Virus record (IMG/VR): IMGVR_UViG_3300035034_000103
Location: 1-26,409 of that record
Direction: 5' to 3' (one strand)
DNA: 26,409 nucleotides
Source: a virus
How positions within the stretch are numbered: the first letter of the stretch is position 1; each line of letters starts with the position of its first letter. This document shows, one piece after another, positions 2,807-21,736 of the stretch. The translations under genes and the position numbers were made by a program. The notes under the pieces were generated by a model that was not told where the DNA came from, ran no database searches, and saw only the letters and a program-made list of their open reading frames with translations.

Positions 2807-2881
2807 GACGTCAATGGCGGGATTATCCTAAGTATCGAGGCACTGCCACATGGTGATCTACCTCAGAGAGTGGGGTGTTGA

Positions 2882-3670
2882 ATGAAAGCTCTAATTGATG
2901 GAGATATCCTCCGCTATGAAATCGGGTGTGCCACTGACGATGAAGGACGCCCCCTGAGTTGGCCTCTAGTCAAGGCTAGGGTAGACGGAAAGATTAAGTC
3001 TATCGCTGAGAAGGCGGGTGCTGACTCCCATGTAGTACATATGTCAGGTAGGGAGAACTTCCGTAAGGACATTGCGACTATCCGCCCTTACAAGGGCAAC
3101 CGGAATGCCGAGAAACCACACTGGCATGATGAGATTGAGAAGTATCTTAAGTCAGGACTGAACCATGATGTGTTCATTGCCGAAGGTATGGAAGCTGATG
3201 ACTCGATGGGTATTGAGCAGTGTACTTCTGATGAAGAGACTATCATCTGTTCACGGGATAAAGACCTGAAGATGATCCCTGGATGGCACTGCCAATGGGG
3301 TACCTCTAACTCAGAAGCTAAGGGTCCTTGGTTCGTCAGTGAAGAGGAGGGAATTAAGTTCTTCTTCACACAGCTCCTCACAGGCGATTCTACGGACAAT
3401 ATCCCTGGACTGTACATGGTAGGTCCAACTAATGCCAAACGCTTCTTAGACGGCATTACAGAGCCTCTCAGGCTATACTCTGCAGTACAACAGCAGTATG
3501 AGAAAAGGTTCGGTAGTTATTGGCCTATGTTTATGTATGAGAATGCTGAACTTCTCTGGATTAAACGTGAGTTAGGAGATCCTAAGTTCCCTGGGCATGA
3601 GGCGCAGGACATTCTTGATGAGTTCCAACATCAACTAGAAGAGGAGGAGGTAATCCTAGATGTCTGGTGA
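2882..3670 (+). CDS. 5'-3' exonuclease, FEN family (T7 gp6-like)
   Basis: Metal-dependent 5'-3' exonuclease of the FEN/PIN-like fold, used in T7-type phages for primer removal, host DNA breakdown and recombination. At 262 aa it is close to T7 gp6. Motifs in order: IDGD (5-8), RPYKGNR (68-74, helical arch), EGMEADDS (101-108), SRDKDLKM (124-131), TGDSTDNIPG (167-176) and VGPTNAKRFL (180-189, helix-3-turn-helix DNA clamp). The acidic metal ligands D6, D8, E104, D106, D107, D126, D128, D169 and D172 all appear to be present. Two very short frames lie just upstream (2803-2881). The 3' end overlaps the next gene. Confidence 0.93.
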   Translation: MKALIDGDILRYEIGCATDDEGRPLSWPLVKARVDGKIKSIAEKAGADSHVVHMSGRENFRKDIATIRPYKGNRNAEKPHWHDEIEKYLKSGLNHDVFIAEGMEADDSMGIEQCTSDEETIICSRDKDLKMIPGWHCQWGTSNSEAKGPWFVSEEEGIKFFFTQLLTGDSTDNIPGLYMVGPTNAKRFLDGITEPLRLYSAVQQQYEKRFGSYWPMFMYENAELLWIKRELGDPKFPGHEAQDILDEFQHQLEEEEVILDVW

Positions 3671-3851
3671 TGATAAGATAATTAACTTCCCAACCACTGA
3701 TGAGTCTGATGTCATCTGGCAGTGTACCGATAAGGAACTTGACCCTGAAGGGTGTGGTTGTATTACCTTCTACATCCTAGAGAAGCACTATGAGTGTACT
3801 AAGTGCGGTAAAGAGTTTACATTTGATGACGTACATGGGAGTATTGACTGA
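3660..3851 (+). CDS. Small cysteine-rich (zinc-ribbon-like) protein (63 aa)
   Basis: A 63-residue protein with Cys at 22, 32, 34, 46 and 49. The last pair, in YECTKCGKEFTFDD, is a typical zinc-ribbon knuckle, and a CGC or C22/C32 pair could supply the other ligands. It overlaps the exonuclease 3' end by 11 nt and abuts the following start as TGATG, so it is part of the same tightly coupled transcript. A GAGGAGG stretch inside the end of the exonuclease gene provides a strong ribosome binding site about 8 nt upstream. Function unknown. Confidence 0.7.
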   Translation: MSGDDKIINFPTTDESDVIWQCTDKELDPEGCGCITFYILEKHYECTKCGKEFTFDDVHGSID

Positions 3852-19131: not shown

Positions 19132-19998
19132 TTAAGCAGTTGCGGTAGCGTCGGTTACGACAACGCCCAGAGTATCGAGACGCTGAACGCCCATGCCCCA
19201 ACGAGCGGTCTGAACGAATTCGTCACGACGCTTGGAGATGTTACGGTCAGACTCAACACGCGGGGGCTGACGCCATGCCATCATGCCGGGCTTGGTGTTA
19301 TCATCAGCGATAGACATGAAGATATTAGCAACGCCATCATTAGTGACGCTATCAGTACCGTCAACGCTAGTAGCAGCCGCCAGGGTGGGCAGACGATTAG
19401 AAGTCCAGATCTGCCAGCCGTGCAGGCTAGTAACGAACTGGTGCTCACGGTCGAAGCCGTCTTTAACCAGTTGCTCGCTCAGGCCACCCAGAGCACCACC
19501 AGTGTTCAGGTAGGTAGTCAGAGTAGAAGCCTTGCTGAAGGTAGCGGCTACAACGGGATCGACGATAGCAACACGGCCCATCATGGGGACGTTAGCTTTG
19601 TCGAAAGCAAGACGCATGTTGATCAGGTCGGCTTCAGACATAGTCTCGTTAGTACCGGTACCGAGTACACGGTGAGAGAAACCGTTGATGGTGTTAGGAT
19701 CGGCAGCAGTTTGACCGTCTTCCAGAACCTCGAGGAAACGAGTCTCGAAATGCTCTTGGATAGCACGGGTAGCTTCCTGACCACGCATAGCGGTCAGTTG
19801 CTCGATCTGAGCACCGTCTTGACGCATCTGATCAGTTACGTACCAGCCGTCACCAACGTGGTCGGTGATGGACAGGGTAACAGAGCCAGTCTCAATCGGG
19901 TTGTAGGTGATGTCTTCGTTCTCGGAGACGTCCTGGATGGTAACGGTACCGATGGTCTTGATGTTCAGAGTAGTACCTGAACCAAAGTCGGTTACATT
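19132..19998 (-). CDS. Major capsid protein, exon 2 (288 of 324 codons)
   Basis: Forms the icosahedral head shell. This exon begins NVTDFGSGTTLNIKTIGTVT and runs through SITDHVGDGWYVTDQMRQDG, EDGQTAADPNTINGFSHRVLG and WQIWTSNRLPTLA to VVVTDATATA, typical of HK97-fold capsid proteins of podoviruses. A frame-only reading starts at ATG 20001, but that ATG spans the intron end, has no ribosome site and leaves the protein without its N-terminal arm. Joining exon 1 (20972-20865) gives FYR-NVTDFG, a continuous 324-aa product of normal length. GC and codon choice are higher here (31/60 in bases 19561-19620) than in the intron (22/60 in 20521-20580). Confidence 0.93.
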   Translation of the reverse strand, partial: NVTDFGSGTTLNIKTIGTVTIQDVSENEDITYNPIETGSVTLSITDHVGDGWYVTDQMRQDGAQIEQLTAMRGQEATRAIQEHFETRFLEVLEDGQTAADPNTINGFSHRVLGTGTNETMSEADLINMRLAFDKANVPMMGRVAIVDPVVAATFSKASTLTTYLNTGGALGGLSEQLVKDGFDREHQFVTSLHGWQIWTSNRLPTLAAATSVDGTDSVTNDGVANIFMSIADDNTKPGMMAWRQPPRVESDRNISKRRDEFVQTARWGMGVQRLDTLGVVVTDATATA

Positions 19999-20029
19999 CA
20001 TACAAGCATATAGCTTGGTAGACTATAAC

Positions 20030-20782
20030 TTAGCCCGTAGGCTTTTCCTCAGTTAGTCGTTGCGAGTGGTAATGAAGAAACTGTTCTATCTTCCAAGTCT
20101 TAAGTCTTGAATGACGGTGCATATCTCTTAGGAAGCTAATAGCGAATTGCTTATTAGTTCTTCCTAATGGATGCTTCCATCTAATCCAATCTTCTTGGAA
20201 ATAGACATGACCTCCATACTGTTTGTGTAGGAGATCTGTAACTATCCTGTCGTCTATATGGCTAACAGTCGATACGTTGTAAGTACCACTGCTCTTCTTC
20301 ATCATATAACACCCATCACCGTCGATATATCCAGCGACGTATGCTTTAGGTAACCATGATTTAGTTTTGACAGGACCAACATCTTTTCTAGAAGACTTAA
20401 CAAACTCCTTGAGTTTATCTATCTCTTCTGAAGATAGTTGTTTGCCTCTTAGCTCTTTCCATACAGTAAACAGCCGATCTAGATGTTTACCTTTTATTAC
20501 TAAGTACTTAAGTAACCTAGGTACAGTCTTTTCTAATGTAGTTCTCTTACTAACCAAGACCTTGATACTCTTAACGCCTTTAGCATTAAGCGGTCTTGTA
20601 TGTACTGATGGGGTAACACCCAGTTCAGCACACAACCAATTAGTAAATTTCATATCCTTATCTATTCCTGTGCTCAGGTCTAGGGATATTGTGAGGTATA
20701 CACGGTTATCTGTATAGTTTAGGAAAAAGCTGCCGTCTGCATCTAGCAAACCGGCAAGGTATTTAATATCAGTTTCTTTCAA
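20030..20782 (-). CDS. LAGLIDADG homing endonuclease inside the intron (250 aa)
   Basis: Probably cuts intronless capsid genes near the exon junction so that repair copies the intron. Two motifs are present, LAGLLDADG (9-17) and VAGYIDGDG (149-157), each with the catalytic Asp (16 and 156), so it is a monomeric two-motif enzyme. The start is TTG 20782, with GGGGG six bases upstream. The frame is not that of capsid exon 1. The last codons, ending RLTEEKPTG, are also the R, P3 and P8 segments of the ribozyme, and the TAA stop lies in J8/7 and S. It is AT-richer than the capsid gene. A maturase role is possible, as for some LAGLIDADG proteins, but cannot be seen. Confidence 0.92.
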   Translation of the reverse strand: MKETDIKYLAGLLDADGSFFLNYTDNRVYLTISLDLSTGIDKDMKFTNWLCAELGVTPSVHTRPLNAKGVKSIKVLVSKRTTLEKTVPRLLKYLVIKGKHLDRLFTVWKELRGKQLSSEEIDKLKEFVKSSRKDVGPVKTKSWLPKAYVAGYIDGDGCYMMKKSSGTYNVSTVSHIDDRIVTDLLHKQYGGHVYFQEDWIRWKHPLGRTNKQFAISFLRDMHRHSRLKTWKIEQFLHYHSQRLTEEKPTG

Positions 20783-20783
20783 G

Positions 20784-20803
20784 ATCTACCCCCAGGGTAA
20801 GAT
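20784..20803 (-). promoter_or_regulatory. Hairpin covering the ribosome site of the homing endonuclease
   Basis: In the - strand RNA AUCUUACCC pairs with GGGUAGAU (one bulged U, loop UGG), burying most of the GGGGG ribosome site just before the TTG start. It may belong to the P6 region of the intron. Folding of the ribozyme would then limit endonuclease translation; this is inferred from the pairing only. Confidence 0.5.
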
Positions 20804-20864
20804 ACCTTCTCTCTGGTTAGCGTTAGCCTCCCAGTTATTTAGAGGAAAGACCGCAATGTTATTT

Positions 20865-20972
20865 ACGGTAGAAGTTAGTCGGCAGCAGGCCGTCATGTAG
20901 ATTTTCCAGAATGAACTGGGAATACTGCTGAGCTTCAATGAAAGCAGTATTAGTAGTAGTAGTAATTGCCAT
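20865..20972 (-). CDS. Major capsid protein, exon 1 (36 codons)
   Basis: The frame starts at ATG 20972, with GAGGG about 8 nt upstream, five bases after the scaffold stop. It encodes MAITTTTNTAFIEAQQYSQF then ILENLHDGLLPTNFYR, the N-terminal arm of the capsid protein. Unspliced, it meets a stop one codon into the intron (AAA TAA), so splicing is needed for any full-length product. It contains a short ACTACTACTACT run. By itself it is too short for usual gene finders and is easily missed. Confidence 0.92.
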
Positions 20973-20977
20973 TACAA

Positions 20978-21736
20978 TTAACCCTCAGTGGTTACTTTAG
21001 ACGCGGAAGCGCGCCATTTATGCAAAAGTTCAGAATCAGACGAGCGGTAACGTGCCATCGGATCTTCAGCAGGCTTCTGCTGTTGAGCGAAAGCTGCTGT
21101 GTTCACGCTGGACTTATACGTTCCGCTATTAGAATCTTGTTTGGCCACACCAAAATAATGGAGCACAGCTTTGGGAGAGGTGGCTGACAAACCGTTAAAG
21201 GTTTCCAGATCCAGACCAAGCTCCGCAGCTTTAGCTTTATATTTTTCTTCGGCTTTATCACCAAACTGTTCCTTAAGAGTTGATGATACAGAATTAATAT
21301 TCTGTTCCATCTGCACCCGCTTCTCTCGCTCGGTCAATTGAGCTTCGAGTAGTTGTGCAATCTTAGTCTCATCAAGCTCTTGCTTACTCGAGGGTTGCTC
21401 TTTCGCAGCTTGTGTGGACTCAACACGCTCCATAATGTCATCTACCTTCTTGGCTTGTTTCAATTGCTCTTCCATCTCCCTGACTTTCTCGGTCAGGCTT
21501 TTGATATGGTCTTGAGCATGTGGAATACTGCTGATGGCATCAGACACAGTAGCGTATTTTTGACGCCCATCCTCAGTCCGGATCGTATCTAGCATGGTGG
21601 CATAGGGATCGGGGGCCTGGGTGGGCTCAGCAGGTTTAGCATCGTCTTGCTGTGTAGACGGTTCAGCTGCAGGGGTTTCCTGTTTAGGTGCTGCAGGCTT
21701 ACCATCTTCGGGGTTACCGAAAATTGTATCAGCCAT
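20978..21736 (-). CDS. Scaffolding / capsid assembly protein (252 aa)
   Basis: Assembles the prohead together with MCP and leaves before packaging. The N-terminus is Pro/Ala/Gln-rich and probably disordered (about 1-45). The middle (about 78-155) is a long charged coiled coil (KVREMEEQLKQAKKVDDIME, QLLEAQLTEREKRVQ). The C-terminus is basic and helical (SELLHKWRASASKV), as needed for capsid binding. Position between portal and MCP, composition and length all match T7 gp9-type scaffolds. Confidence 0.85.
   Translation of the reverse strand: MADTIFGNPEDGKPAAPKQETPAAEPSTQQDDAKPAEPTQAPDPYATMLDTIRTEDGRQKYATVSDAISSIPHAQDHIKSLTEKVREMEEQLKQAKKVDDIMERVESTQAAKEQPSSKQELDETKIAQLLEAQLTEREKRVQMEQNINSVSSTLKEQFGDKAEEKYKAKAAELGLDLETFNGLSATSPKAVLHYFGVAKQDSNSGTYKSSVNTAAFAQQQKPAEDPMARYRSSDSELLHKWRASASKVTTEG

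Follow-up and report, generated by a model that had tools for sequence, protein, structure and literature searches.

Results

The window analysed here, meaning the whole 26,409-nucleotide stretch of the viral record IMGVR_UViG_3300035034_000103, is a linear fragment of 26.4 kb. Read along the minus strand it carries a terminase gene, a portal gene, a gene in the scaffold position and a major capsid protein (MCP) gene that an insert divides into two exons (Table 1). The reading frame of exon 1 runs into AAA TAA, the first two codons of the insert, and stops there. The frame of exon 2 has a single possible start, an ATG formed by the three 3'-terminal bases of the insert (20001-19999), and this is not preceded by a Shine-Dalgarno sequence. 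When position 20865 is joined to 19998, TAC CGT meets AAT GTA and a stop-free MCP of 324 residues results. The spliced protein aligned without a gap over the junction to the MCPs of three intronless relatives: L006 (88% identity over residues 1 to 324), phage GX1 (85% over residues 1 to 317) and L007 (81% over residues 1 to 322). Empty sites were exact in the intronless relatives of both the window and Pseudomonas phage HHBS10_2, described below. An earlier note, made from the sequence of the window, had placed an intron at 20864-19999, had read the 36 codons behind a ribosome site as the missing N-terminal arm of the capsid protein, had found no ribosome site for the downstream frame and had proposed alignment with intronless homologues as a check. 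Each of these points was confirmed, and the boundaries proved exact to the base. An intein was also considered for the insert and ruled out by the in-frame stops that begin immediately within it.

The window MCP matched phrog_267 (1.3e-43). It is 85% identical to the MCP of GX1, a member of the Zobellviridae, and its gene follows the order terminase, portal, scaffold position, MCP. Judged by homology over the whole protein and by gene order, the MCP is of the Zobellviridae type and the window phage is Zobellviridae-like.

Table 1. Features of the split capsid gene and its intron in the window.
Feature	Position	Strand	Remarks
Upstream neighbour of MCP, scaffold-protein position	20978-21736	-	phrog_7931, unnamed
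Ribosome site of MCP exon 1, GAGGG	20982-20986	-	
MCP exon 1	20865-20972	-	36 codons, MAITTTTNTAFIEAQQYSQFILENLHDGLLPTNFYR; ATG at 20972; matches residues 1-36 of intronless MCPs
Group I intron	19999-20864	-	866 nt; U precedes the 5' splice site, G is the 3' end; after codon 36 of MCP
ACAUU	20855-20859	-	P10 with exon 2 start AAUGU (19998-19994)
Internal guide sequence GCGGU	20850-20854	-	P1 with exon 1 end ACCGU (20869-20865); U.G pair at the splice site
P3 5' strand UUUCCUC	20842-20848	-	7 of 7 pairs covary; 96.9% of cells paired, 42 sequences
P4 5' strand CUGG	20831-20834	-	covariation alignment
P5 hairpin GGC-UAAC-GCU	20819-20828	-	by inspection
P4 3' strand CCAG	20813-20816	-	covariation alignment
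P6 5' strand GAG and P6a GGUA	20803-20811	-	P6: 3 of 3 pairs covary, 100% paired; P6a by eye
LAGLIDADG homing endonuclease ORF	20030-20782	-	TTG start, 250 aa, in the P6 loop
P6a/P6 3' strands UACC-A-CUC	20064-20071	-	P6 by covariation; P6a by eye
P7 5' strand (R) GACUA	20054-20058	-	invariant except the last pair, an A-U/G-C switch in 11 sequences
P3 3' strand GAGGAAA	20044-20050	-	covariation alignment
P8 hairpin AGCC-UACG-GGCU	20032-20043	-	by inspection
P7 3' strand (S) UAGUC	20021-20025	-	covariation alignment
P9 hairpin CAAGC-UAUAU-GCUUG	20003-20017	-	by inspection
MCP exon 2	19132-19998	-	288 codons and stop

An Rfam search, another check that the earlier note had proposed, gave no hit to the model Intron_gpI (RF00028) and only chance matches with the window, the intron alone or the HHBS10_2 intron. 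The model probably misses the window intron because of the approximately 700 nt of ORF inside P6. A match to this model aids detection and does not itself define group I introns, the defining helices of which are P3, P4, P6 and P7. Since no match was obtained, the assignment to group I was tested independently, by covariation among 42 related cores trimmed of their loops. Across these cores P3, P4, P6 and P7 were paired in 98.7% of cells compared with 69.7% after shuffling. Double changes numbered 239 (70.5 in the shuffles) and the covariation score was 0.758 (0.186 in the shuffles); when the partner column was slid, pairing fell to 40% or less. P3 paired with its own partner strand in 96.9% of cells and with the strands of other sequences in 51%. 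All five P7 pairs were formed in the 42 sequences, giving the P3/P7 pseudoknot core with its R and S strands. Pairing in the P4-P6 domain (P4 99.4% and P6 100% of cells, with double changes present) is slightly favoured by the location of these strands partly through complementarity, which was not used to locate P3 and P7.

The sequences of P1 and P10 varied with the insertion site. With the same freedom of spacing granted to own and foreign exons, the guide formed 5.3 bp with the exon it belongs to, against 2.4 bp with exons from other sites, and P10 scored 3.1 and 0.8, respectively; none of 5000 permutations of the sites equalled the observed P1 (with its U.G pair) and P10 pairing. A terminal G was present at every mapped junction, although a G was required in the mapping; in HHBS10_2 the junction is made exact by the empty site. 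Every element of the fold listed in the earlier note (P1 with U.G, P10, P3, P7 with R and S, P8, P9 and the terminal G) was recovered. The comparative sequence evidence, namely core helices and P1/P10 that covary in homologous introns together with exact empty sites, is decisive for the group I identity of the window insert.

The earlier note did not include the 250-residue LAGLIDADG ORF, the 3' part of which overlaps P6', the P7 5' strand, P3' and P8. The ORF possesses two intact motifs, LAGLLDADG and AGYIDGDG, and matches Pfam LAGLIDADG_1 (PF00961) at 2.1e-9. The acidic residues D14, D16, D154 and D156 of the motifs are invariant across 11 endonuclease sequences. A profile of the family matched the PDB structures of I-MsoI, I-OnuI and I-AniI. 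In the three endonuclease pairs with unsaturated dS, a set outside which the window's own saturated pairs fall, the dN/dS of the ORF was 0.06-0.13; on these sequences, the family is under purifying selection.

A DNA search retrieved a cultured relative, Pseudomonas phage HHBS10_2 (PQ287653.1), in which a homologous intron of 885 nt (L003:2290-3174) interrupts the same MCP gene. The two introns share a homologous group I core and a LAGLIDADG ORF (41.6% identity between the ORFs). They differ in guide, in P10 and in site, that of HHBS10_2 being the codon-14 site in window numbering rather than the position after codon 36. The phages O4, IME180 and PA11, which are 96-98.6% identical to HHBS10_2 over the flanks, possess an uninterrupted GAGAGT^GAACAA, and DMTU_1 (94% identical over the flanks) is uninterrupted too; HHBS10_2 stands alone with its intron among its intronless Paundecimvirus relatives. 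For the window itself the nearest intronless flanks are approximately 80% identical in nucleotides, and there is no near-identical pair with and without the intron.

The protein encoded by exon 2 of HHBS10_2 is 100% identical in amino acids to the O4 MCP, and the split copy is the only MCP locus in the complete genome. Exon 1 there comprises just 13-14 codons, and a TAG stop codon lies directly before exon 2, so a second half translated separately from the junction is impossible in this phage. HHBS10_2 has been isolated and its virions imaged as those of a podovirus, in a paper that makes no mention of an intron (PMC12141865). Since HHBS10_2 makes virions though its only MCP copy is split, there is strong support at the level of the family for the view that phages with such introns need splicing to produce capsid protein; this would extend to the window phage by analogy, with the proviso that an intact MCP copy could lie beyond the ends of the linear fragment. 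In the HHBS10_2 record (L003:2290-3174 and 3163-3837) the LAGLIDADG intron ORF is labelled 'HNH endonuclease', no MCP is annotated and a hypothetical minus-strand gene is placed across MCP exon 2.

Searching IMG/VR with a single endonuclease sequence gave no match, while an alignment of two ORFs recovered 9 loci and one of 11 ORFs recovered 80. No member of the endonuclease family was found in plasmids, and bacterial and archaeal genomes yielded one weak match of 31 residues and nothing else; this therefore looks like a phage family. Junctions were mapped in 24 introns of window-type MCPs by matching exons to homologues, requiring a T before the intron and a G at its end. The 24 fell at eight sites, after nucleotides 42, 49, 108, 146, 251, 255, 262 and 269 of the window MCP, the window's own site at 108 being shared with L022, L023 and L031. 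Neighbouring sites were exactly 7 nt apart three times (42/49 and 255/262/269), and 251 and 255 were 4 nt apart. The 7-nt spacing may be due to chance or to the geometry of the endonuclease or ribozyme. One locus, L058 (approximately 2840-3727), apparently holds an intron in the part of the MCP gene that encodes the C terminus, at about codon 298 in window numbering; all other sites fall within the first 28% of the gene. An AlphaFold model of an intronless MCP had a mean pLDDT of 45 and was unusable for siting the insertions on the fold.

Conservation of the MCP at the insertion sites was 0.83 versus 0.71, a value as high being reached in 22 of 10,000 random draws. In the endonuclease tree, some internal supports of which are only moderate, the codon-14 intron fell among codon-16 introns, site 85 lay inside the 87 clade, and 87 and 89 were mixed. 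These nested changes indicate that positions change over short distances. An intron was present in one of 116 phage records with a window-type MCP (counting single-piece matches over most of the protein) and in none of the first 10 IMG/VR homologues of the window MCP. The earlier note's impression that such introns are uncommon in podovirus capsid genes is only partly right: they are rare per genome, but the intron family recurs in capsid genes. Taken together, the conserved sites, low dN/dS, rarity and tree fit a homing element predicted to cut conserved capsid sequence.

The host gene played no part in the endonuclease searches. They provided 63 downstream exons, of which 59 belonged to MCP genes (26 window-type, 13 more distant phrog_267 and 20 phrog_3437) and 4 to the terminase large subunit (TerL). 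A core-DNA pattern blind to the ORF returned 66 loci, and at least 30 of the 48 new downstream ORFs encoded MCPs, namely 24 phrog_1357 major head proteins, at least 5 window-type MCPs and 1 phrog_3437 protein; 1 other of the 48 was a terminase. Both approaches started from the capsid intron, and the core pattern was built from the same ribozymes. As seen by searches seeded in this way, most members of the ribozyme lineage reside in capsid genes, and their recurrence at many positions in phage shell genes is suggestive of mobile introns that have made the shell gene their habitat.

A second group I set with a related core (L107, L112, L113, L116 and others) was observed in the phrog_1357 MCP family; some of these introns seem to carry an opposite-strand LAGLIDADG-like ORF, as in mycobacteriophage LittleE. 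The terminase gene of Pseudoalteromonas phage J2-1 (L016:700-830 and near 1135-2075) contains an intron of the same family as the window's, immediately preceded on its upstream side by another P7/P9 stretch of group I-like character.

Discussion

We consider it about 95% probable that the insert is a self-splicing group I ribozyme that joins Arg36 to Asn37, with a presumed capacity for homing and for shifts of site accompanied by re-tuning of the guide. Fold, P1/P10, terminal G, empty site and ORF are drawn from sequence and covariation, and P5, P8 and P9 from inspection. In the infected cell, guanosine-initiated splicing in two steps would excise the intron from the capsid mRNA. When related phages co-infect, the endonuclease would cut those of their MCP genes that lack the intron, and repair of the cut gene would then copy the intron in. 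By this route the lineage would repeatedly enter conserved 5' stretches of MCP genes, and may sometimes shift by a few bases within what is possibly one endonuclease target, the guide being re-tuned to the new exon.

A more ambitious proposal, to which we give somewhat less than even odds, is that these introns form a clade specialised on phage MCP genes. Such a clade would recognise conserved stretches of coding sequence in more than one MCP family. Within a single endonuclease target it would move from one position to a nearby one, often by 7 bases, with its guide re-tuned, and it may aid the phage by cutting the capsid genes of rivals that infect the same cell. The concentration in capsids might instead reflect descent and sampling, that is, one old entry into an MCP gene followed by inheritance and a search seeded with MCPs. 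The searches did start from an intron in an MCP gene, and in the tree closely related endonucleases often have the same site. Descent and sampling accord poorly with eight sites in one MCP family and with changes of site nested in endonuclease clades (14 in 16, 85 in 87, 87 mixed with 89), as they do with the presence of introns in several MCP families and TerL and with their sparse occurrence, exemplified by HHBS10_2. The ORF-blind search also returned mostly MCPs, albeit with a pattern taken from the same ribozymes. On balance we regard descent and sampling as an unlikely explanation, though one of real weight.

Insertion of an endonuclease could, alternatively, have left the MCP gene in pieces, its two halves being translated separately and co-assembling, with exon 2 read from the ATG at the intron end. 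That ATG is in frame with exon 2, and three other introns at site 36 end in an in-frame TTG. It nevertheless lacks a ribosome site, the short exon 1 and the TAG of HHBS10_2 speak against such an arrangement, and other insertion sites lie in phase 1 or 2. Covariation of the ribozyme and retargeting of P1/P10 would also go unexplained, and we judge a gene in pieces to be very improbable. Less credible still is that the intron has decayed and no longer splices, in a phage lineage that is itself defective. In favour of decay, the window is a fragment known only from its sequence; against it, every core helix is paired, the guide and P10 match perfectly, both catalytic motifs stand in an uninterrupted ORF, and the dN/dS of related ORFs is low, as given above.

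The MCP is among the most abundant late products of a phage, so an intron in its gene leaves little room for inefficient splicing. The eight sites with their matching guides constitute a natural series for the old question of the route by which a group I intron arrives at a new site, the candidates being reverse splicing and repair led by the endonuclease. The cultured pair of HHBS10_2 with its intron and O4/PA11-type phages with the empty site (up to 98.6% identical) makes the question directly testable. Furthermore, annotation overlooks or mislabels the MCP gene where such introns are present, as in HHBS10_2.

Phage group I introns that occupy several sites per gene or encode homing endonucleases include those of Twort orf142 and of the SPO1/Bastille-type DNA polymerase genes; these reside in other genes and involve other endonuclease families than the window intron. 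I-OnuI, I-AniI and I-MsoI, which resemble the window endonuclease in the profile match over the LAGLIDADG motifs, are organellar intron enzymes, and we know of no relation between their targets and the capsid sites. A close parallel is mycobacteriophage LittleE, the MCP gene of which contains an intron, probably of group I although its authors left the type unclear, with splicing demonstrated by RT-PCR and N-terminal protein sequence (PMC3706429). As described, it resembles the window in having an intron in the major capsid gene and a LAGLIDADG-like ORF; it differs in that the ORF lies on the opposite strand and in its MCP and host (PMC3706429). Lactococcus phage Tuc2009, as described where it is cited in that paper, likewise has an intron in a capsid subunit gene (PMC3706429). 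Capsid-gene introns with proven splicing are already known from LittleE and Tuc2009, and the window case alone is not new. The open-access full-text literature held no description of a multi-site, capsid-concentrated lineage of LAGLIDADG introns; what is new relative to the literature searched is the concentration of one intron lineage in capsid genes and its eight sites with matching guides.
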